Origin: Montifringilla adamsi
Lineage: Eukaryota > Chordata > Aves > Passeriformes > Passeridae
Length of the DNA stretch: 64,000 bases
Reading direction: 5' to 3'
NCBI GenBank assembly: GCA_017590115.1
Contig: JAGGNK010008226.1
Location: 3,951,617-4,015,616 of the forward strand
The notes under the pieces were generated by a model. That model did no database searches, had not been told where the DNA came from, and saw only the letters and a list, made by a program, of their open reading frames with translations. Every line of letters begins with the position of its first letter. The first letter of the stretch is position 1. Positions 3,601 to 39,452 of the stretch are shown here, one piece after another. The translations under genes were made by a program, and so were the position numbers.

Positions 3601-6600
3601 TCAGTGGCCATGAGAGCGGTTGCAAAGATAAGATAATCAATGCATGGCTTGAAGACTGAGTGTTCTGCAGCTTTTTTTTTTTTTTTTTCTTGATGTGGTG
3701 CATCCACCCAGTTATGTTAGGCACTTTGTGTCATGTCTTTTTAATTTTTTGTATTTTCTGTAGCTTTATAAATTGACTTAACAAATTCATAGGTCATTGC
3801 CAGTATGAAATTATTTATTTTACTAGAAAAGTTATAAGTACTTTTTCTACTAGAAAAGTAATTTTTATGTGTGTGTTTGGTGTTTGTTTCTTTAGCTCAT
3901 GTGTACAGTTGATGACCTGAAGGAGATGGGGATACCTCTTGGACCAAGAAAGAAAATAGCTAATTTTGTAAAAGACAGAGCAGCCAAGCAGGTAATTACA
4001 TATTTCAGGATGGAAATTAAAAGTTGTTAAGCAAATGCTTGCTGTGGACTAGCTTCTATTCTTGAACACTCTTGTTAACATCCTGAATATATTAAAGGAA
4101 TTTTGACAGCTGTGAAATTAACCTTTTTTCTCCCTAACTTTAAAACTTTTCTCAAAAGGAACAGAAGAAAGCAGTAGCAGAAAAGAAAGCAGTGCTGGCT
4201 GCCACGCTCCAGACTCAAGAAGACACCCAGAAATCAAAAGACACAGTTTCTTCTGTCTCACCTTCAGAGTCTGGTCAGATGCACACAAAGAGGAAGCTCC
4301 CAGTTGGTGCATCTGTGTCTTCTGTGAACATTGACTATGAGTATTTTGAAGTTGGAACTGGCCAGGTGAGACTGTGCAGATCTAAATGATTTGAACAATT
4401 TAAAGGATTTGTTCAATCCTCTCGTTTCACTGTAGTTCTTTTTAATGTTGATGACATTTTGCTATTTCCTTTGAAGCTGACAGTTCTGAGAGATGATGTG
4501 TCTGATTTCTGCCTGGTAGGTTTCTGTGGTTTACAGTGCACTGGACTTTGAACCAGATATTTTCTTTGCTCTTGGTTCCCCTATTGGTGTGTTCCTTACT
4601 GTGAGGGGTGTGGAGAAGATTGATGAAAACTACAGGCTCCCTACCTGCAAGGGGTTCTTCAATATCTATCACCCAGTGAGTAGCAGTGCTTTTGATATTT
4701 GATTTTAGTCGATGTAGATGACAAAAAAGGCAGAATACTAAGTTCTGCCGTCTGAGCATTACACCTCTTGTTCCCCTGTGTACATTTCCTAAAACACTTC
4801 CAGGCATGGGTTGTTTTCATAATATTTGCCTTGTTTCTTTTCAGAATTAAGGAAGTTTTTTTGTGGGGGGGAGTTGTTTGGGCTTTTTTCATTAATTTGA
4901 GGCCACTCTTGTAGATTTTTATGGAATATTTGTATTTTTACATGCAGTGTTTGCTCTCCTCTGTCTCATTTTGTTTAACAATTTAATGTTGATAGAGATT
5001 GAGTGCAAGGAAATCTTGCTGTTGTGTTTCCCCATTAGAAGCTCTTTCTGTAGGAGAACAAGACCAAGGTAGTTCATGAACCTGCTTAATATGTCATGAA
5101 CTGAATTTCTGTAAATTCAAATAGTGCAGAATTCAAAAATGGTTGTCTGTAATTCATAAATAGGGATTTTTTTTTCACTGAAATGTGATAATTTTAAAGA
5201 TAATTAAATGTCAATGTGTTGTTTCTCAACAGCTTGATCCAGTAGCTTACAGGTTAGAACCAATGATCATTGAAGACATGGATTTAAAACCAGTTCTCAT
5301 TCCGCATCATAAAGGCAGAAAAAGACTTCATCTGGGTAAAAAGAAAACTTACTTCATATGGATCCTATTCATTATTTCCCATTTGATGCATTAGAATATT
5401 GTAAGCTTTTAAGAGATTAATTAATATTCCTGGATATCTGACTCCATATTTTTCCAGACATCAGAGGTGATTCCACCCAGCCCCATTAGTTCGGCATTCA
5501 CAATTCCATTCAAAAGTAATAATCACGTTTCCTCCAGATTTAACCTTCTCATTACCAAAGTTCCATTAAAGCACTGCTGTACATTGCTTGATCACCTTCA
5601 TTGCTAAGAAGCTGTGCAATAGAAACTAAATTTATTTGTCTCCCTAATGACCACCATGATGTGTTTAACCAGAGTCTGTTTAGTGTTGGGAACCCTGAGG
5701 GAAAAGCAGGTTCTGTGGCCATCGGAGGGCAGGGACTGACTTTGTTGCTCATGGGTGCACGTCATACCAAGGTGCTCTACTTAAATTTTGCACATCTCAT
5801 AGGGAAAGTCAGTTTTGCTGTTGTGCAAGTTCACAGAGCCCTCCTGAAAGCCTCTGTTCAGGCACTTGGAGAGATTCTGTAGCATCTGTCCTTTGGAATT
5901 GTCCATTAGAGTGAGTTTGCTTTGCTAGACTACACAAGATACTTGTTTCAGGTTACAACACTCCAAAAGTGTGTATAGTAAAGGAGAAAAATATGGTCTG
6001 TTGCTCCTTATTGTTTTGACTTTGATCTAGGTGGATTCATTGACCCATTCAGTAAGAAGTCAATTGTGTATTAATTGCATTTCACCTAATCTTTTAAAAT
6101 GGAATAGAGAAGCAAGAAACATGCATTTATGACATGGCAGGCTTGTTTCCCCTGGTAATTGGGATGTTTATTGAACAGAACTTCATCATTCTGCTTGTAG
6201 TTGGTAATTTTAAATCCTTCTGAATTAAATTTTTGGTGTGTTTGTTTTTTTTTTTTCTTTCTTTCTTTCTCAGAGCTGAAAGACTCTCTGTCTCGTATGG
6301 GATCTGATCTGAAGCAGGGCTTTATTAGCTCTTTGAAGAGTGCGTGGCAGACCCTTAATGAGTTTGCACGTGCTCATACATCTTCAACCCAGCTGCAAGC
6401 AGAGCTGGAGAAAGTAGCTAACCAAATTAAAGAGGAGGAAGAAAAGCAAGTGGTGGAAGGTACATGGACACATTATTGGTTTTTCTGTAGCTTACTTGTC
6501 TCAAATAAGTTGACACTTGAGTGTCTCAGTGACTGTTCGCTATTGATTTTCCTGACCCTGTTAAAGAGGTTTCTGCTAATTGTCAGGTTCCCGCCAAAGC

Positions 6601-9193
6601 TGCTCTGTCACTCTCCTCCTCAGCTGGGTATGGGAGAGAAATTACAATGAAAGCTTTGTGGGTTGGAGTGAGTTCAGGGAGAAATCACTCAGCAGTTACT
6701 TGTTAAGAAAACTGTTTAAACTGTTAGGAGAGAAGTAAGCCTATAGTTCAGTACCCTTTCTGAGCCATGCTGGGCAGTTCAGGTTATTATTGTCTTATCA
6801 CAAACACTTGGAAATTACAGCAGAAAAAATGGGTAATATTTCTTAATTATAGTCAATCAGGCTGTGCTTGAAAATAGTTTAAATGTGAAACTCTTTGATT
6901 TTAGCTGAGAAGATCACTGAAAGTCCAGACCCTCCAAAAGACGAAGATGTTTCAGTGAAGGTTGGGATGCTGAATGGAGGGCGTCGCATTGATTATGTTC
7001 TACAAGAGAAACCAATAGAAAGCTTCAATGAGTACCTGTTTGCTTTGCAGAGTCACCTGTGCTACTGGTAAGGGGAGATATCTGTGATTCCAGAAATTGT
7101 GCTTAAGGGACACAGTATATGTGATTGTCCAGGAGTGTCAGACTCAGGATGTAGTGCTTGCATGTCACTATTTGATAATCCTGTTTCAAAGGAAAATTCT
7201 GTGTTAGCACACAGTGAACAAATCTGCAATAATAATATTGGCAATAATATTGCAAATTTGCAATATTATATAGAATAATATTTACAATAATATTACAAAT
7301 TTGCAGTAAAAACATTGCACACTCTTCTCTCAACCTTTGACACTCCAAACACACATTTTTAGCTACTGTCATTTTCAAAACAAGGAGAACTCTGGAAGCA
7401 TTTTCACAATTGTAGCTCTTCAAATAAAACTGTTCAAGAAGGACTTTTATTAGACTACAGTAAGTGGTAAAACTTTATTGCTTCTTCTGGCAGAGCAAAG
7501 GATGTGTGAACTATATTTAACAGCACATCTTGGTATGTAATAGCTAACCTTGGGTGTCAGCTGTGAGCTGTGCAAAGTGATGTTGGTGAGGGAGGAGTGG
7601 CTGGTCTCTCATTTTGAGTTCAGCAGGTGCTGGACAAAGAGTGCTCTACGCTCTTTCTGAAGGTTTTGATTATCAGTAGGTAATTTTAGCAGCAGGCATT
7701 TTTTCCAGAGGTTAAAACACAGCTCTGAAGGCGTTACCTGAAGGGTCTGATTAGAGCCATCATCAATTGAATGATGAAGCTCAGCACCTGCCAGAGGAGG
7801 GGTTCCCGGGGCTGCTGTGAGCCCTGGGCTCTGTCAGGGTGACCCGGTGGTGGCAGTGCCGTTCCACAGGCAGCGCTGAAGGGACGGGAATTCCTGCCAC
7901 AGGGTGGCAGCCGATCACTGCCAGGATTTTAAAAGCTTGGTTCCTGTGGCTGCTTTTGTCATTCGGGTGAGGAAGATAAGCACAGTGATTAATGACCCAA
8001 ATAGGAGAGCATTTTTTTCCTGAGGAATGGTGGGAAAAGCTTTAAATGAAGTGCTCTGAGTGTTGGAGAGATTGGAGCTTCTGTGTTGAACCTTCTGCTT
8101 GCTTGTTTGCTGCTCATTTAATGCAGAGATCGTCAATAAATGTCTGTGCTCAATTTGGAATATACATGTATTCCCTTAGCTTGCATGTTTAATTCTGTAC
8201 CTGCAAATTATGTTCCTCACATCCTTTGGAGGATCACAGTTCTGACCATCTAAATCTCTCTTACTGGCTCCCTATATATTTTATTTTAAAAAGCACAGGA
8301 GGCTGCCCTCATCTCACAGATCCTGCAGCTCTGGAACTTTGTTAAAATTTGCCTGTTTAACATTGGGGGTTTTTATGTTAGTATTGTTTATGTGTTAGTA
8401 TTGTTTAAATAGCATTTTATAGATGAAGAAGAAAATTAAGTATCTTCATGTTAACTTTAGATTCAGACAGCTTGAAGCTTTGATTTTTGAAAAGAGGAGA
8501 TAAAACATCCACTTGGAAACGTGGCACTTGAATGATACTAATCTTTAAATTATTTGAGAGCTATCTAACATTTTAGTAGTAAGCAAGAGAGGAAGACTAT
8601 GGGTGTTTAACACAGTCTGTTTACAATTAAGGGCCTGCCAGTTAGAGAAGAATTAGAATATTGCTGCTAGAACTGGGCTAATTAATGGAGTGGGATAAAA
8701 TTAGTAGAATGAAGTTGGAATATATTCAGGATAAAAAGTGATGCATTATTTGAGGAGATTAAGATGAGGAAGTAACATCAAAGAAGAGGATAGAGGAGGG
8801 GGTTTGGAGTTGCAGCATAGGAAGTTAGGGAGGACAGGAGGAGGAAATGCACTAGAAAAAAGGTAAATGCATAGGCTAGGGCTGATAGCAGAACTTGTGT
8901 AGAATTATAGCTTGAAGGAAGCTGGTGGAGGTAAGGCTGTGTTCATGTAAAATAAATACTGGGCCAAGAGGTTGTGCAAACTCTTTGGAAAGCTGAAACA
9001 GGATGGATTGTGACTTAGGAAAATTAGAAGGTGGACCATACTGAACTAACTTTTTTTTTTTTTTTTTTCTTCCCTTTTTTCCTTTTGTTTTATTTATTTC
9101 ATTCTTTGTAGGGGATCAGAAGACACTGCCTTGCTGTTTCTCAAAGAGATATACAGGACGATGAATATCAATCCTGAGCAGCCACAGCATTGA
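468..9193 (+). CDS. SEC23IP: SEC23IP (p125), 3' half: eleven terminal coding exons
   Basis: SEC23IP binds the COPII coat protein SEC23 and acts at endoplasmic reticulum exit sites; it belongs to the DDHD / intracellular phospholipase A1 family. Exons are 468-609, 1852-2060, 2664-2776, 3345-3515, 3896-3991, 4159-4365, 4520-4675, 5233-5335, 6274-6459, 6905-7067 and 9112-9193. All eleven join in one frame, and all ten introns within the window are GT-AG. The spliced product is about 541 residues with no internal stop. In order it shows the lipase-like core with GHSLG, a SAM domain, a lysine-rich linker and a DDHD domain ending in PEQPQH. The SEC23-binding proline-rich N-terminal half lies upstream of the window. 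The paralogue DDHD2 is excluded because it lacks the [17 protein letters not shown] segment and has a different C-terminus. The family assignment is sure; the exon edges come from reading splice sites and codon phase. Confidence 0.97.
610..1851 (+). other. SEC23IP: SEC23IP intron (1.24 kb)
   Basis: This is a GT-AG intron. I found no exon, RNA gene or clear transposon in it; the short open frames at 730-945 and 1367-1734 look random. Confidence 0.85.
1852..2060 (+). CDS. SEC23IP: SEC23IP exon b: lipase core up to the GXSXG serine
   Basis: The exon encodes [51 protein letters not shown]: the most conserved block of the DDHD family. The nucleophile serine of GHSLG is the AGC at 2054-2056. The last glycine of the motif is split by the following intron (G at 2060 plus GT at 2664-2665). 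The exon is GC-richer than its surroundings. Confidence 0.97.
2061..2663 (+). other. SEC23IP: SEC23IP intron (603 bp)
   Basis: This GT-AG intron interrupts the GHSLG motif. It contains nothing else I can name. Confidence 0.85.
2664..2776 (+). CDS. SEC23IP: SEC23IP exon c: after the lipase motif
   Basis: The exon encodes [17 protein letters not shown] followed by a poorly conserved serine/glycine-rich linker ending [12 protein letters not shown] directly after GHSLG is diagnostic of SEC23IP/DDHD2. The donor is GTAATT, and the exon ends on a codon boundary. Confidence 0.95.
2777..3344 (+). other. SEC23IP: SEC23IP intron (568 bp)
   Basis: This is a GT-AG intron, AT-rich, without a recognised feature. 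Its acceptor (TTTTGTTGAG) is weak, with a broken pyrimidine tract. Confidence 0.75.
3345..3515 (+). CDS. SEC23IP: SEC23IP exon d: acidic linker and first half of SAM domain
   Basis: The exon encodes an acidic stretch ([13 protein letters not shown]) and then the first helices of a SAM domain ([20 protein letters not shown]). The 5' edge is set by the AG at 3343-3344: reading from the earlier AG near 3309 meets an in-frame stop. The exon is in phase 0 at both ends. Its first codon is ATG, but it is an internal exon and not a start. Confidence 0.9.
3516..3895 (+). other. SEC23IP: SEC23IP intron (380 bp) splitting the SAM domain
   Basis: This is a GT-AG intron with a T18 run near 3672-3689 and otherwise no recognised feature. 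Confidence 0.85.
3896..3991 (+). CDS. SEC23IP: SEC23IP exon e: second half of SAM domain
   Basis: The exon encodes [20 protein letters not shown] and then [12 protein letters not shown], the C-terminal helices of the SAM domain. SAM domains in this family take part in oligomerisation and phosphoinositide or membrane binding. It is 32 whole codons, in phase 0. Confidence 0.96.
4159..4365 (+). CDS. SEC23IP: SEC23IP exon f: lysine-rich linker to DDHD
   Basis: It has 69 codons: a basic, alanine/lysine-rich start ([12 protein letters not shown]), a serine/threonine-rich disordered middle, then [13 protein letters not shown] leading into YFEVGTGQ at the DDHD boundary. The linker is the least conserved part of the visible protein, as expected for the family. 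Confidence 0.94.
4520..4675 (+). CDS. SEC23IP: SEC23IP exon g: DDHD domain, first part
   Basis: The exon encodes [32 protein letters not shown] and [17 protein letters not shown]...FNIYHP is the opening signature of DDHD domains. It is 52 codons, phase 0, and the donor GTGAGT overlaps the final proline codon region. Confidence 0.97.
4676..5232 (+). other. SEC23IP: SEC23IP intron (557 bp)
   Basis: This is a GT-AG intron with no further feature seen. Confidence 0.85.
5233..5335 (+). CDS. SEC23IP: SEC23IP exon h: DDHD domain, conserved D and H residues
   Basis: The exon encodes [12 protein letters not shown] and [20 protein letters not shown] and PHHKGRKR carry the conserved aspartate and histidine that give the DDHD domain its name. 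It ends on the first base of a split glutamate codon. Confidence 0.97.
5336..6273 (+). other. SEC23IP: SEC23IP intron (938 bp)
   Basis: This GT-AG intron has an acceptor pyrimidine tract that contains a short (CTTT)n repeat at about 6257-6270. The 93-residue open frame at 5601-5882 has no recognisable similarity and reads as chance. Confidence 0.85.
6274..6459 (+). CDS. SEC23IP: SEC23IP exon i: helical, coiled-coil-like insert in DDHD
   Basis: The exon encodes [40 protein letters not shown] and [17 protein letters not shown]. The amphipathic, glutamate-rich helix is the segment that separates SEC23IP from DDHD2. It starts with AG of a split codon and ends with G of a split alanine codon. Confidence 0.97.
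6460..6904 (+). other. SEC23IP: SEC23IP intron (445 bp)
   Basis: This is a GT-AG intron with nothing else seen. Confidence 0.85.
6905..7067 (+). CDS. SEC23IP: SEC23IP exon j: DDHD domain, final conserved block
   Basis: The exon encodes [20 protein letters not shown] and [31 protein letters not shown] carries the last conserved aspartate of the domain. The tryptophan codon is split TG|G by the last intron. Confidence 0.97.
7068..9111 (+). other. SEC23IP: SEC23IP last intron (2.04 kb)
   Basis: It is the longest complete intron in the window. It contains the AT-rich palindrome and repeat cluster at about 7225-7305, a GC-richer patch at about 7790-7910, and ends in a long pyrimidine tract (9050-9110) before TAG. 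I saw no exon or known transposon in it. Confidence 0.85.
7225..7306. repeat. AT-rich local duplication with 26-bp perfect palindrome
   Basis: Bases 7244-7269 are a perfect self-complementary 26-mer centred on AAA|TTT. A 21-base unit (CAATAATATT-R-CAAATTTGCA) occurs at 7242-7262 and again at 7285-7305 with one difference, a period of 43 bases. This is a local duplication in intron sequence; I know of no family that it matches. Confidence 0.8.
9112..9193 (+). CDS. SEC23IP: SEC23IP last coding exon and stop
   Basis: The exon encodes (W)[20 protein letters not shown] and then PEQPQH followed by TGA at 9191-9193. The ending is the SEC23IP C-terminus, unlike that of DDHD2. The glycine after the conserved CYW replaces a glutamate usual in mammals. 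Confidence 0.97.
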
Positions 9194-10315
9194 TGTATAA
9201 AAACATGAATTTGTAAGTGTGCTCTAATGTAACTTCTGTGCTCATATCAAATTCAGCTACATCTCAGATGTCTTTACTTTCCCTTTCTCCTCTGAAGTTT
9301 AAATTATGAAGCAGACAGCCATTAAATGTCATTTTGATTGCAAAAACAATTTCTGAACTTGAATGCAGAGGAAGCCTTTTTCTTCTTCCTTTCATTTCCA
9401 GAAGATATATGATGTTAGTGCTTTTGATACTGGATAATAATTGCCACTACAAATACAACCAAAGTGTGATCTCTTTCTTACGCTTCTCCTTCAGTTCTGT
9501 TGTTCAGTGAATGTTCAAGAATAGGAAAATTTGGTGAAATTGGATATGATGAAACTTTATGTACCGTGCAGTAGATTAAGGAACCCCAAAAGTGTTTCAC
9601 TGGTGTACTTTAAATACAGGATTGGTTGAACAATGGTGCACATTTGCCAGCAAAAAGCTGTTTATCTCCTAAGAAGGTGATAAACATTGCTATTGGTAAT
9701 TGATGCTGTTGATAAAAAATCAACAAAAAACAAAAAACAAAACACAAAACAAAAAAAAAACCAAAAAAAAAAAAAAACCAAAAAAAAAAATCCATGCTAT
9801 TGATATTGCCCTTATATAGGTCAGTATTTTATTATCTTTGTATAGATGAAGAATTTCAGTAGAACAAGTGAAATGACACAGCGTGGAAATTTGCTTTGAA
9901 AAGAAATTAAATACATATTAAAATTGAGTATCTTAGATCTGAAATATTCTTGCAGTTATTTTTATTTTAAGATATAGGTTTCCAAACTAAGGATCTGTAT
10001 TGTACCAGTTTGCATCACTGGTTGTTACAGAAAAGAAAATACTTTTGAGAGGCAGCGAAGAAATAATATGCACCTTGCCTTTTTGGAATCATACAAGATA
10101 GTTTCTGATGTATTTCTCCATTTTCAGAAGAGCTGATAATGTCAAGGTACATAAATACCCAGCATGAAGAGAAATGCTTGACATTTCAGAGGAATATTTT
10201 AGGTGTCTTTCATTGCTACCATACAGTTTTAGTAGTCTTTTGTAACAAAATGCTTCTGATGGTCAGTTGATAGCAGCTTTTTTAAAAAAAAATAAAATGT
10301 CAAGGCTGATCAAAT
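9194..10315 (+). other. SEC23IP: SEC23IP 3' UTR (distal end uncertain)
   Basis: The first canonical AATAAA after the stop is at 10291-10296; ATTAAA variants occur earlier (near 9322 and 9905). The UTR contains an interrupted A-rich tract at 9713-9790. Mammalian SEC23IP has a longer 3' UTR, so later polyadenylation is possible. Only transcript data would fix the end. Confidence 0.5.
9713..9790. repeat. A-rich / (CAAAA)n tract in the 3' UTR
   Basis: About 78 bases are almost only A with scattered C on the + strand, a low-complexity tract. It could be a microsatellite or the decayed poly(A) of a retroposed sequence, but I recognise no retroposed body next to it. Confidence 0.85.
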
Positions 10316-26593: not shown

Positions 26594-26795
26594 TTTAGAG
26601 TAGGTTTAGATGGGATGTTGGGCAGGAATTGCTCCCTGGCAGGGTGGGCAGGCCCTGGCACAGGGTGCCCAGAGCAGCTGTGGCTGCCCCTGGATCCCTG
26701 GCAGTGCCCAAGGCCAGGCTGGACAGGGCTGGGAGCACCTGGGACAGGGGAAGGTGTCCCTGCCATGGCACTGGATGGGATGTAGGGTTCCTTCT
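26594..26795 (+). mobile_element. CR1 LINE fragment, 3' region, + strand
   Basis: It contains the highly recognisable CR1 block GCACAGGGTGCCCAGAGCAG, CTGTGGCTGCCCCTGGATCC, AAGGCCAGGCTGGACAGGG, and then GAAGGTGTCCCTGCCATGGCA. The usual end (AAGGTCCCTTCCA and octamer tail) is missing or scrambled after 26785. It is the same subfamily as the copy at 34.7 kb. Confidence 0.92.
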
Positions 26796-34674: not shown

Positions 34675-34980
34675 GCTCGGAGGGCTGAGGAACCTCTCTG
34701 GGGAGCAGAGGCTGGGGTGTCCAGCCTGGAGAAGAGGAGGCTCCAGCCAGACCTTAGAGACCCTCCCATTGCCTAAAGGGGCTCCAGGAGGGCTGGAGAG
34801 GGACCTGGGACAAGGGTGATGGGACACAGGGGGATGAGTTCAAATTTAAGGAGGCAGATTTAGATCAGGTATTAGGAAGGAATTCCTCCCTGTGAGGCTG
34901 GTGGGGCCCTGGCACAGGGTGCCCAGAGCAGCTGTGGCTGCCCCTGGATCCCTGGAAGTGCCCAAGGCCAGGCTGGACAG
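34675..34980 (+). mobile_element. CR1 LINE, part before the nested insertion
   Basis: From GGAGCAGAGGCTGGGGTGTC, GTCCAGCCTGGAGAAGAGGA, GGAGAGGGACCTGGGACAAG and GATTTAGATCAGGTATTAGG to AAGGCCAGGCTGGACAG, the order matches the CR1 3' region. The element continues without loss at 35504, so it was intact when the 34981-35497 insertion arrived. Confidence 0.95.
34975..34980. repeat. Target-site duplication, left copy (GGACAG)
   Basis: GGACAG here and at 35498-35503 flanks the inserted element. An uninterrupted CR1 would read GGCTGGACAGGGCTTGG, with one copy. Six bases is the duplication length typical of alpharetrovirus/ERVK-type integrase. Confidence 0.9.
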
Positions 34981-35064
34981 TGTCACCATGATATTTTTTT
35001 AAAAATCCTTTGCCAGGATTTTCTGCTGAGAAGCCTCAGAAAAGAAATGTAAACAAAAACTGTC
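34981..35064 (+). repeat. Left inverted repeat (copy of the U3 start)
   Basis: It matches the reverse complement of 35414-35497 at 80 of 84 positions, starting TGTCACCATGATATTTT. The differences are at element positions 1, 18, 20 and 77. Weaker similarity continues to 35070 through the microhomology TCAGAAGG. Confidence 0.95.
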
Positions 35065-35100
35065 AGAAGGCGGCGTGTTCAAATCACATCGGGATCACCA
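35063..35100 (+). other. tRNA-Trp 3' half with CCA end, fused to LTR
   Basis: The 38 bases run from TCAGAAGG through GCGTGTTCAAATCAC to TCACCA. They match the 3' half of vertebrate tRNA-Trp(CCA), from about the anticodon stem through the T arm and acceptor, at about 34 positions as I recall that tRNA. The added CCA is not encoded in tRNA genes, so the source was a mature tRNA. It is not a functional tRNA gene because the 5' half is absent. Confidence 0.88.
35083..35100 (-). promoter_or_regulatory. Retroviral primer-binding site, tRNA-Trp type
   Basis: The minus strand reads TGGTGATCCCGATGTGAT two bases (TT) after the LTR's terminal CA. It differs from the alpharetroviral tRNA-Trp site by two C-to-T changes. 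The CA-TT-TGGTGA spacing is that of avian leukosis-type viruses. Confidence 0.92.
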
Positions 35101-35102
35101 AA

Positions 35103-35497
35103 TGTGGTTGTGTTCGAGGGTCCCCAGGACGAGGGAAGAGATGAGAATCTTGACTCCATGTTTCAGAAGGCTGGTTTATTTTACCATGATATATTAAAAT
35201 GTTATACTAAAACTATACTAAAAAGAACAAAGAGAAAGGATCCATCAGAAGGCTAGAAAGGAAAGGAATGGAATGAATAACAAAAAAACGTGACAGCCAG
35301 AGAATCTGACACAGCTGGACCCTGACTGGCCATCAAGCAAAAACAATCCACATGGACCAATGAATGATGCACCTGTTGGTAAACAATGTTCAGACCACAT
35401 TCCACAGCCATCAGACAGTTATTGTTTACATTTCTTTTCTGAGGCTTCTCAGCAGAAAATCCTGGCAAAGGATTTTTCAGAAAATATCATGGTGACG
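35103..35497 (-). mobile_element. LTR of an avian ERVK/alpharetrovirus-like element
   Basis: It is about 395 bp, ending in CA on the minus strand; its first base is C in place of the expected T (TG to CG). It carries an AATAAA polyadenylation signal (complement of 35175-35180), followed by the sequence CCAGCCTTCTGAAACATGGA typical of the R/U5 part of a common passerine LTR. No gag, pol or env sequence is attached. Confidence 0.88.
35408..35415 (-). other. U3 microhomology to the tRNA (template-switch site)
   Basis: The minus strand reads TCTGATGG, and the tRNA portion at 35063-35070 reads TCAGAAGG: 6 of 8 identical. The LTR-derived inverted copy ends and the tRNA copy begins exactly here, which is what priming by a short imperfect match would leave. 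Confidence 0.75.
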
Positions 35498-35503
35498 GGA
35501 CAG
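35498..35503. repeat. Target-site duplication, right copy (GGACAG)
   Basis: It is identical to 34975-34980 and forms the start of the resumed CR1 sequence (GGACAGGGCTTGG). Confidence 0.9.
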
Positions 35504-35604: not shown

Positions 35605-38600
35605 CTTTCTGAGGTACCCTCACATCTTCTCCAAACCAAGCACTGCCCTCAGCTCCCTGCTGGACCCTCCTGCCCCAAACCTGCATCCTCTTGGTCCCAA
35701 ATCCTTCCTGACCCCCAGGGCACCATGCAGAGCATTCCTGCTGCTTTCAGGTGCTGGTGACCAGCACCTCCTGGGAAAATACTTTTATTTCAGCTGCTGC
35801 TCCTGAGAGCAGAGTTTTCAGCCGGGGGAGAGGCCCTGGGAAGCAGTGGTGTTTGTGTCAGGAATGAAACCCCAGCACGTCCCAGGCTGTGCCAGCCCAG
35901 GGAGCTGCTGCCCTGGCCCTGGCTGGTTCCAGGCTGCTCTTTCAGCAGGGCTAATGGGATTAAAGTCAGCTTTCCCCACTGAGGTAAACAGAAATGACAG
36001 GCTCAATAACATGTAGCTTTTAAAGTCGCATAGATGGTTCAGCAGACAGAAGTTTTGCCCTGTTTGTGTCTCAAGTCGGAATATTTTCCACTTAAATTAA
36101 AATAACTGCTGATTTATGCAATCAAGGCAAAAGTTGGAATAAGCTACATGGTCTTTTAAGGTAATCATGTAAAAATATCTAGCATAAATGGAACTGCTGG
36201 TTTAAAATAGACAAAAACATCTTATTCAGAAAAATAACTCCTTCAGATATAACCATCAGTATTCAAGTACAAAGCAAGCTGTGCTTTCCATCATCATCCA
36301 TTTGTTCAAATGCAATATGAGATACGAAACACTTTTAGGGATGTTTTTTCCACAATGTTTATTTGGTTTTCTTTTATTTATTTATTTATGACAGCACAGG
36401 ATACAATTATTGTTGGAGACTCTTGGACACCTTTGCACCTTGCATTTTTTGATATTTTTTTTTCCAATATTGGAGGCAAAGGGATCTGAATGACAAATAT
36501 AAGCATTCAAAATGAGTTGGGAAACTTGTCTTTAATACTTAATTGGATTTTGCCAGGCACTGTGCCCGGCCAAGAAAACACTTAAAGTATCCCTGTCTGA
36601 AAGTGTCATAATTTTACACAGGGAAATGTCTGCATGCCAAACATATCACCAAATAATTGAAACACAAAACTGCCAGAATTTTCTTTTCAGTAATGACAGG
36701 AAATTAAGTAATTGTTAAATATGAATTCTAGAAAAAGCCCTCAGGTCCCTTACATTATATGAATAGGGTCACAGTATTAAAGGGTTACAGTAATGATCTT
36801 GGATTTCAAAGCCAAATAAGTAAAAAAAAATATCATACAAGTTTTCTGGATGTCAAGGCTGATGGTTTTGTGGTTTTTATTTCCTTTAATGTGTTATTCT
36901 AAGGAATTTTGTACAGAAATTTTTTTTCTTCTGCTGTTCAACAAAATTGCTAAAAGTTATTTCTAAACAAGACAAGAATTATAAAGCTGTTTAGTGCCAA
37001 AATTTCAGCTCAAAAAGCAATTTTCTGTTCCAAGAAGCAGGAATTGGGATCCACTTTGATCAGCTGAATAAAAAGGCAGAGCCTACTGGAAGACTTCAGC
37101 TTTTTCATTGTTTTTTCTATTACTGCAGAAGTGCTTCAAAAGCTATAATGGACCTTTTAACTGGGAATAATTCCCCCCAGTGCTGTTTGCTCCAGGACAG
37201 ACGCTGCCCTCTCTTGCACCTTGCTCTGTGTGCTCTGGGCTTGCAGTGAAATTGTTTCCAGTGATTCCAATTCCCAGTGACTGACTCTTGCAAAGACTCA
37301 CAGTGTGACAGAAGAAATTGAAACCTAAACACCACTTTTGTTAGAAGTTTTGATTCAAGAGAGCACCATCCATTTCATGCCTGCTCCATTTTTTAACAGA
37401 CTCGTTTGTGTGGTTGTCAAAACCAAATTAAAGGCACTGTGTGTCTGCCATCCCAAATACAGGAACTCTTTCAAAACTTGTTTTTCCAGCAATGATGATA
37501 TTCTTTCTCTTCTTTTTTTTCAGGAAATGCCTGGTTTAGAAGGCAATGATGTGTGTTAGCAACAACTTGGTGAATAGTTATTATTTTAAGCAATGTTCTC
37601 CTATTTATTGGTCAAAATAGAGAAAAACATTAGAATTTCATGAAGTGAAAAAGTGGTGGTGCTGCCTCAGTACTGTCACCCTTCAGTTTGTGGCATCAGA
37701 GTTTAGGACTTTAATTTCCACTGTAAAGGCCAGTATTTCTGAGAGGAAATAGCATGATAAATGTGATAAACTTGATTCAAACATACAAAACCTGTAACTA
37801 TATAAGGGATGAGGTATCTGGCATAAAAGGACCTTCCAACCCTGAAAACAAAGGCCAAATCACATTAATATAAAAAACATGCAAACTATGAGACAGAACA
37901 GAGTCCCCTCCCAGCTGGTGCTTATCTGGTGTGCCTGATCTGCTGGCCAGGTGAAACTTAGAAATCAGTAATTATCCCTGACCCCCAACAGCTGATATAA
38001 AAGTCTTTTAGACAAGCAGAGGGAGTGTATGCTTGGAAAGAGGAATGGCTCAGCTCAGGGGTCATCTTATCTGCTAATTTTCTCAATTTTATGAAAAAAA
38101 GATTAATTTTGAAGTGCTTTGAGGAAGTTGGTGGAGTGTTTTCTGCCTTGTTGGTGCTGTCAGAGCATTTGCTGGGCTGCTACTGGCCAGCCCCTGGGAC
38201 AGGCTGGGTGGCTGTACCTGGGCTTGTAACTCTGCACAATAAATTGTATATAAATATTTCACACTTAAATTTTCTGCTGTCTTTGGAAAGTGGGAATAAC
38301 TCTGCAGTTCTCTCTCTTGATGGCAAGGCCAGGCAGGGATGGGTCTGGAGCTGGAGTTCAGGTGTAGTTTGGATTTCCATGGATTTTGCTGTGCCATTTT
38401 TTTCACTGTTTCTTTGCTTTTCTCTCTCCCTGTGAACTGAGCTGCTTTAGAAAACATAGCCTCATAGCTTGCTTCCCTTTGTGAGGGTTTTGAGAAGCTA
38501 TAAACAAATTAAAGACTGAAGTAAAAAGCTCATTTTCTATTTGTGGCCAGGGCAATAAACCAGGTGGAATGACGAGCTCCCAGGGGATGCCCCACGTGCC

Positions 38601-38872
38601 ACAGGTCAGGGACAGGGAGGGAAGGAGCTGCTCTTCAGGAGGTGCCTGATGGCTTTCTAGGAGCCTGTAATCACCTCTGAGCCCCTGGTTTTTCTGCCCT
38701 TTTCTCTGTTCTGTACGCCCTGCTGTCCTCTGGGGCACGTGGCACTGTGGAAGGTGTTGGTGCAGCAGGGCACAGGGTGAGCTCCTGGGATGGGCTGATG
38801 GATTCCAGCTGCTCCAGCTTCTGTTCCCAGCACAGGCATCTCCCAGCCTGCAGCTGCTGAGCCTTTGCCCCT
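35605..38872. other. Intergenic, no gene seen
   Basis: A moderately GC-rich patch at 35.6-35.95 kb is followed by AT-rich sequence with a (TTTA)n run near 36376-36390. No gene or transposon was recognised. Confidence 0.6.
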
Positions 38873-38940
38873 GGGTTGCACCCTGGCAGTGAAATGTTGG
38901 ACGTTTGGGTTGCACCCTGGCAGCGAAATGTTGGACGTTT
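38873..38940. repeat. 34-bp tandem duplication (two copies)
   Basis: Copies at 38873-38906 and 38907-38940 start GGGTTGCACCCTGGCAG and differ at one base (T/C at unit position 18). The T-to-C difference makes a CpG in copy two. The single difference points to a recent duplication. Confidence 0.95.
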
Positions 38941-39452
38941 GGCAAGTTGCACAGTCCATGAGAAATATTACCTGCTCCCCCAGGCTGACAGGGCTTGAAA
39001 GGGAGCATTTGTTAAAACAATTCCTTGGTTTCTCTACTTTCCTTGGTCTTCTTTATGCATTGTATTAAGGTAAAAAGGTGGCATGAGATGGGAGGGTGAT
39101 GAATTTCTTTAATTGGGGGGTTCTGTATTAACTTCCCCGAGGGGCTGTCACACACACCAGGCAGAGCTCCTCTGGGGTTCTATTCCCAGCACTTCTCCTG
39201 GCAATGAAATCTCATCTGAAGCTGTGCTGGTGCTTTGCAAACATCCCTTACGTGTCTTGGTGCTCAAGAGAGCACAGTGATTGTGTCCTATCTGGTTATA
39301 ACTTGTGCAGATGAAAATAAGGCACAGGTGTGCAGGGGCAAGGTGGTGCTGACACAGGTGTGGGTGGTGCTGGGGCTGTGCAGCCACTGCTGTCACCAAA
39401 GCAGCTTGGAAACCATCTGTTCCCTCCCATTGCTGCCCATTCCTCCCCTCTT
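38941..39452. other. Intergenic, no gene seen
   Basis: No gene, RNA or mobile element was recognised between the tandem duplication and the next CR1 piece. Confidence 0.6.

Follow-up and report, generated by a model that had tools for sequence, protein, structure and literature searches.

An ordinary provirus carries the viral leader directly after its primer site, and the dinucleotide at an LTR end is normally lost during integration. Two-LTR circle junctions are reverse-transcription products that depart from this standard provirus, and the minus-strand strong-stop DNA of HIV reportedly undergoes TAR-dependent self-priming.

During plus-strand synthesis in HIV, the main stop lies before m1A58 of the primer tRNA, and a minor plus-strand product, which ends at the modified A37, is inactive as a template; m1A58 occurs in retroviral primer tRNAs, tRNA-Trp among them (accessible text of a 2026 review, PMC13191261). 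An m1G is tabulated at nt 37 of human and bovine cytosolic tRNA-Trp (PMC7200024, Table 1). Many zebrafish tRNAs also carry m1G37, with cytosolic tRNA-Trp unnamed among them in the accessible portion of the report (PMC11417395). Asymmetric-LTR proviruses are another group of non-standard reverse-transcription products, described in the accessible portion of their report without an inverted U3 or a second U3 tip (PMC9278108). With regard to integration, the integrase of RSV carries out concerted integration in vitro with a donor bearing only the gain-of-function U3 end, according to the available part of PMC3579926.

The window, which is the whole 64-kb stretch of DNA analysed here, contains a 517-bp insertion (34981–35497) with the 6-bp sequence GGACAG on either side. 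On the minus strand, the parts of the element follow in the order LTR, TT, primer site, 20 more nucleotides of tRNA-Trp, and the reverse complement of U3 nt 84–1 (Table 1). Both ends of the element are U3 tips. A sequence-only reading had described a retrovirus-derived, non-coding, palindromic insertion that is neither a provirus nor a solo LTR, with U3 at both ends and a 6-bp GGACAG duplication. The parts and their order are indeed read in the sequence, and this description holds with exact coordinates and an identity of 80/84 between the arms.

Table 1. Coordinates of the element, its flanks and the closest uninterrupted repeat in the window.
Feature	Position	Strand	Remarks
Left copy of the target-site duplication, GGACAG	34975–34980	.	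Flanks form one continuous CR1-like repeat
Inverted copy of U3 nt 1–84; outer end is the U3 tip (TGTCACC)	34981–35064	+	80/84 identical to the U3 of the LTR
tRNA-Trp nt 39–58, past the 18-nt primer site	35063–35082	+	18/20; first 2 nt (TC) common with U3
18-nt primer binding site, tRNA-Trp type	35083–35100	-	16/18 against the printed tRNA-Trp complement
TT between the LTR end (CA) and the primer site	35101–35102	-	
Full-length LTR of 395 bp, from the U3 tip (35497) to the CA of its U5 end (35103)	35103–35497	-	
AATAAA, probable polyadenylation signal of the LTR	35175–35180	-	Motif present; role putative
Right copy of the target-site duplication, GGACAG	35498–35503	.	
Related CR1-like repeat, uninterrupted, with a single GGACAG (paralogous empty site)	26602–26770	+	150/170 identical to the joined flanks

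Across the window, only 34 of 63,471 positions (0.05%) show six identical bases at the same spacing, and the GGACAG duplication is therefore unlikely to have arisen by chance. The repeat that received the insertion is putatively a CR1, in agreement with the sequence-only reading. For an empty-site comparison, the two flanks were joined with one GGACAG removed and aligned to the other repeats in the window. The closest one (26602–26770) aligned without a gap at the insertion point and with one gap a few bases beyond it. A more distant repeat (45044–44896) also crosses the insertion point, with 115/160 identical positions, 17 gap positions and AGACAG in place of GGACAG. Both empty sites are paralogous, not orthologous. 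As expected of an insertion made by a retroviral integrase, the element has viral tips at both ends together with a short duplication, one of the tips having its last base changed: the first base of the LTR is C, and the other arm has T at this position.

The primer site reads TGGTGATCCCGATGTGAT on the minus strand and is identical to the tRNA-Trp complement at 16 of 18 positions. As the tRNA-Trp reference, we used a human sequence, a suppressor with an engineered anticodon, as printed in the available part of PMC6379413, and all nucleotide numbers were counted on it by us. The reference 18-mer of tRNA-Trp is the primer of chicken ALV and EAV proviruses, according to the accessible text of PMC5029493. 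Only one site in the window matches a tRNA-Trp-type primer site at 14 or more of the 18 positions. The element thus has the feature of a tRNA-Trp-primed avian retrovirus, in that its LTR adjoins an 18-nt site that would pair with the 3′ end of tRNA-Trp. No retroviral gene region was found within the element. The TT between the LTR and the primer site was probably kept because that LTR end was internal.

Beyond the primer site, the next 20 nt match tRNA-Trp at 18 positions (chance P = 1.6e-9), whereas none of the 4 nt that follow do. The copied tRNA stretch thus runs from nt 76 to nt 39 (38 nt), and the next nucleotides of the tRNA would be A38 and G37, followed by the anticodon. Because a viral leader would be expected at this place and an 18/20 match to tRNA was found instead, the tRNA was likely copied past nt 58. 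We also considered a viral leader that happens to resemble the tRNA. A complementary stretch adjoins lentiviral and spumaviral primer sites (accessible text of PMC13191261), but a match of 18/20 over 20 nt seems too long in comparison with it, and we judged this possibility unlikely. ARAGORN called no tRNA in the window. Rfam gave nothing at gathering score in the window, and the two rows that fell between 34900 and 35600 were far below their gathering scores and contained no tRNA. The missing tRNA call is unsurprising because only half of a tRNA is present, but it adds no support. The tRNA end of the element resembles the position-37 product of HIV, although it falls one nucleotide before the place where the stop would be expected.

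The inverted arms (34982–35071 and 35407–35496) are 94% complementary over 90 nt. Within the outer 84 bp, counted from the tips, they differ at 4 positions (1, 18, 20 and 77), which fits a single template copied twice and mutated afterwards. When the window was searched for inverted repeats of at least 40 nt (exact seed of 14 bases, arms no more than 5000 bases apart), four pairs were obtained, namely the arms of the element and three overlapping pairs in an A/T-rich region (9051–9777). In that region, T-rich and A-rich stretches approximately 610–630 bp apart pair as imperfect inverted repeats. The fold of the element as single-stranded DNA is far better than those of shuffled sequences (z = −13.5; 0 of 100 shuffles), which restates only the palindrome. 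The 4/84 arm differences give a rough age of 2–32 million years, with mid estimates of 7.5–12.3 million years, the range spanning the count interval and two assumed substitution rates. A motif near the U3 tip, ACCATGATAT (34985–34997), is repeated inside the LTR at 35183–35195, where it adjoins the AATAAA, possibly by chance.

The tRNA copy and the inverted U3 overlap by 2 nt, TC, at 35063–35064. In an exploratory pairing test, the tRNA copy was taken as a 3′ tail and compared with every site in U3, using three tails and six lengths. At a length of 8 nt, the site that was used (U3 nt 83) has 6/8 matches and is one of 4 such sites among 310. At 13 nt, with 9/13 matches, it ranks first of 305 for both the element tail and the human tail. 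With 16 nt of the element tail, it leads all 302 sites, but with the human tail it belongs to a group of 4 that match at least as well. With 20 nt, this group grows to 6 (element tail) or 11 (human tail) among 298 sites. Shuffled U3 sequences contained an equally good 13-nt site in 64 of 1000 cases for the element tail, 272 of 1000 for the human tail, and 16 of 1000 for the third tail, a variant. In this exploratory comparison, the support for the junction lies in the rank of the used site and not in the strength of the pairing.

Comparison with the known systems illustrates where the element stands. Like a solo LTR, it holds one LTR between short target duplications. However, the U5 end of this LTR is followed by the TT, the primer site, the tRNA and the inverted U3, all of which the element has kept, and it ends in U3 and U3 instead of U3 and U5; it is accordingly not a solo LTR. 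It has one full LTR and no interior past the primer site, which distinguishes it from a provirus, and it also differs from a TRIM, which has two direct LTRs, because the full LTR is single and the second copy is inverted and partial. The element shares with the plus-strand read-through product of HIV a copy of the primer tRNA that passes nt 58 and ends beside position 37, modified in HIV's primer and putatively so here (PMC13191261 for HIV, in its accessible text). The HIV product is minor and derives from tRNA-Lys3, whereas the copy in the element is of tRNA-Trp, joined to an inverted U3, and chromosomal. The minus-strand self-priming of HIV is alike in that a strong-stop DNA serves as its own primer through its 3′ end, but the strand proposed for the element is a plus strand and its product is integrated. 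The asymmetric-LTR proviruses and the two-LTR circle junctions resemble the element as products of non-standard reverse transcription, and the inverted U3 and second U3 tip of the element have no counterpart in the accessible portion of PMC9278108. MITEs and foldback elements are also short and non-coding, with terminal inverted repeats and a target duplication, whereas the ends of the element are retroviral U3 tips and the window shows no sign of a family. The element probably belongs to the aberrant reverse-transcription products, a kind that is already known. A literature search over titles and the beginnings of abstracts, with most subscription journals outside its scope, did not find this layout, and the accessible part of PMC7472051 contains nothing on it.

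We consider it probable that the element is a plus-strand strong-stop DNA that overran the tRNA stop, primed on U3 in place of the transfer to the primer site, and was integrated via two U3 tips. The steps of this route are reconstructed from what the DNA itself contains, namely the parts, their order, the 2-nt overlap of tRNA and U3, the two U3 tips and the 6-bp duplication. Plus-strand strong-stop DNA would have begun at the polypurine tract and copied U3 through U5 and then the tRNA, and the tRNA sequence would be present in the element because reverse transcriptase copied it. Synthesis would have passed tRNA position 58 and halted at nt 39/38, beside a putatively modified G37. The last 20 nt of such a 3′ tail would misfit the viral primer site region, and the second strand transfer would fail. 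The absence of the viral interior may be explained in this way, since a tail of this kind would prevent the second transfer.

The tail would then have paired with U3 around nt 83–95, the U3 belonging either to the strand that carried the tail or to another plus strand packaged in that particle, and would have been extended to the 5′ end of U3, an end made exact by the cut at the polypurine tract. The inverted U3 would end exactly at the tip because plus strands start there. In the simplest case, another short plus strand, begun at the same U3 tip, would have served to finish the complementary strand. Such a second strand would be needed because a hairpin by itself offers a single double-stranded end, and its simplest source would be the other genome of the particle or a second initiation. 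Finally, integrase would have inserted the product by a concerted joining of the two U3 tips; the two U3 tips and the 6-bp duplication would be present because integrase used both ends. Against the proposed overrun of strong-stop DNA, the stop would be expected after A38, whereas the copy ends one nucleotide earlier, and a single copy gives no replication of the pattern. The exploratory nature of the pairing comparison and the additional strand demanded by a hairpin also count against it.

It is also conceivable, although we regard it as unlikely, that two retroviral DNA ends were joined by another route before integrase inserted them. A plus strand still in synthesis, halted at U3 nt 84, might have switched to the tRNA tail of a completed strand, or host end joining might have connected two LTR fragments via the TC microhomology. 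The junction overlap of only 2 nt is as in end joining, and two U3 tips would also be obtained, with no hairpin to be opened. However, the breakpoint coincides with the U3 site that pairs best over 13 nt and lies near the tRNA position where a polymerase would be expected to stop, and end joining requires neither. Autointegration or circle products were set aside, as they would not be expected to give two U3 ends. If two LTRs had been inserted separately in opposite orientations and a deletion had then occurred, a course to which we assign a nearly negligible probability, two outward-facing U3 tips would likewise result. A single GGACAG pair encloses the whole element, and the tRNA nucleotides past the primer site would be left unexplained. 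The sequence-only reading had named a separately inserted LTR as a possible source of the left arm, but neither host sequence nor a second duplication separates the left arm from the tRNA part or is found elsewhere inside the element. We give very little credence to a rearrangement after insertion, in which host recombination or gene conversion changed a provirus or a solo LTR. Solo LTR formation is very frequent in passerines, according to the available part of PMC11009239, but copying of tRNA nt 39–58, or a second exact U3 tip at the duplication, would not be expected from such events. An assembly or library artefact at an internal junction is about as improbable. Inverted chimeras are a known library artefact; such a chimera would not be expected to yield a 6-bp duplication in an otherwise continuous repeat or a tRNA copy ending beside G37, and the arms have diverged at 4/84 sites.

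The sequence-only reading had also proposed a MITE-like element, possibly a mobile family. This proposal, in which a non-autonomous family is spread by retroviral integrase acting on two U3 ends, appears very unlikely. It would account for the terminal inverted repeats, the small size, the absence of coding sequence and the target duplication. However, no second copy was found in the 64-kb window, and the element lacks what cut-and-paste transposition or retrotransposition needs, so the machinery for spread is missing and the proposal is unsupported. Integrases act on linear reverse-transcribed DNA and never excise integrated DNA, and a transcript with a single R, and none at its 3′ end, would be expected to allow no first strand transfer. 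The sequence of the terminal repeats is that of the LTR tip, where a retroviral U3 starts, which argues against recognition by a DNA transposase. A one-off accident of reverse transcription explains every part. Exact-pattern scans for the junction, the U3, the 3′ part of the LTR and the tRNA extension gave 0 matches in viral and prokaryotic collections, which have little bearing on birds, and the whole element had no match in a phage collection.

Independent recurrences with other junctions are possible, and there is ample material for them because solo LTRs of ERVK occur in bursts in passerine genomes (PMC11009239, in its accessible text). We can suggest only tentatively, and hold it to be somewhat doubtful, that integrated U3–U3 LTRs, produced when overrunning strong-stop DNAs snap onto U3, are a recurrent but unrecognised class in birds, each with its own junction. 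If there is such a class, its members would preserve, as fossils, instances in which the second strand transfer failed and traces of how tRNAs were modified in ancient germ cells, and would be a natural proof that retroviral integrase can insert two U3 ends in a living genome. If the origin from overrun plus-strand strong-stop DNA is true for this element, one ancient insertion records the passage of tRNA nt 58, a stop beside position 37, and the in vivo insertion of a DNA with two U3 ends by concerted integration. Annotation tools would probably label the element as a solo LTR fragment and overlook its layout. The signature of LTR, TT, tRNA-Trp nt 76–39 and inverted U3 can be searched for in any bird genome and would gauge the failure rate of the second strand transfer.

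Elsewhere in the window, a Pfam scan of ten of the 19 listed long open frames gave no family above the cut-off. Below the cut-off, the open frame at 6201–6647 (+) matched DDHD (E = 0.002) and Sec8_N (E = 0.007). The region 38001–39052 has overlapping long open frames on both strands, of which one per strand was scanned against Pfam with no match, and it contains a 34-bp tandem repeat at 38872–38942 (2.1 copies, 97%).
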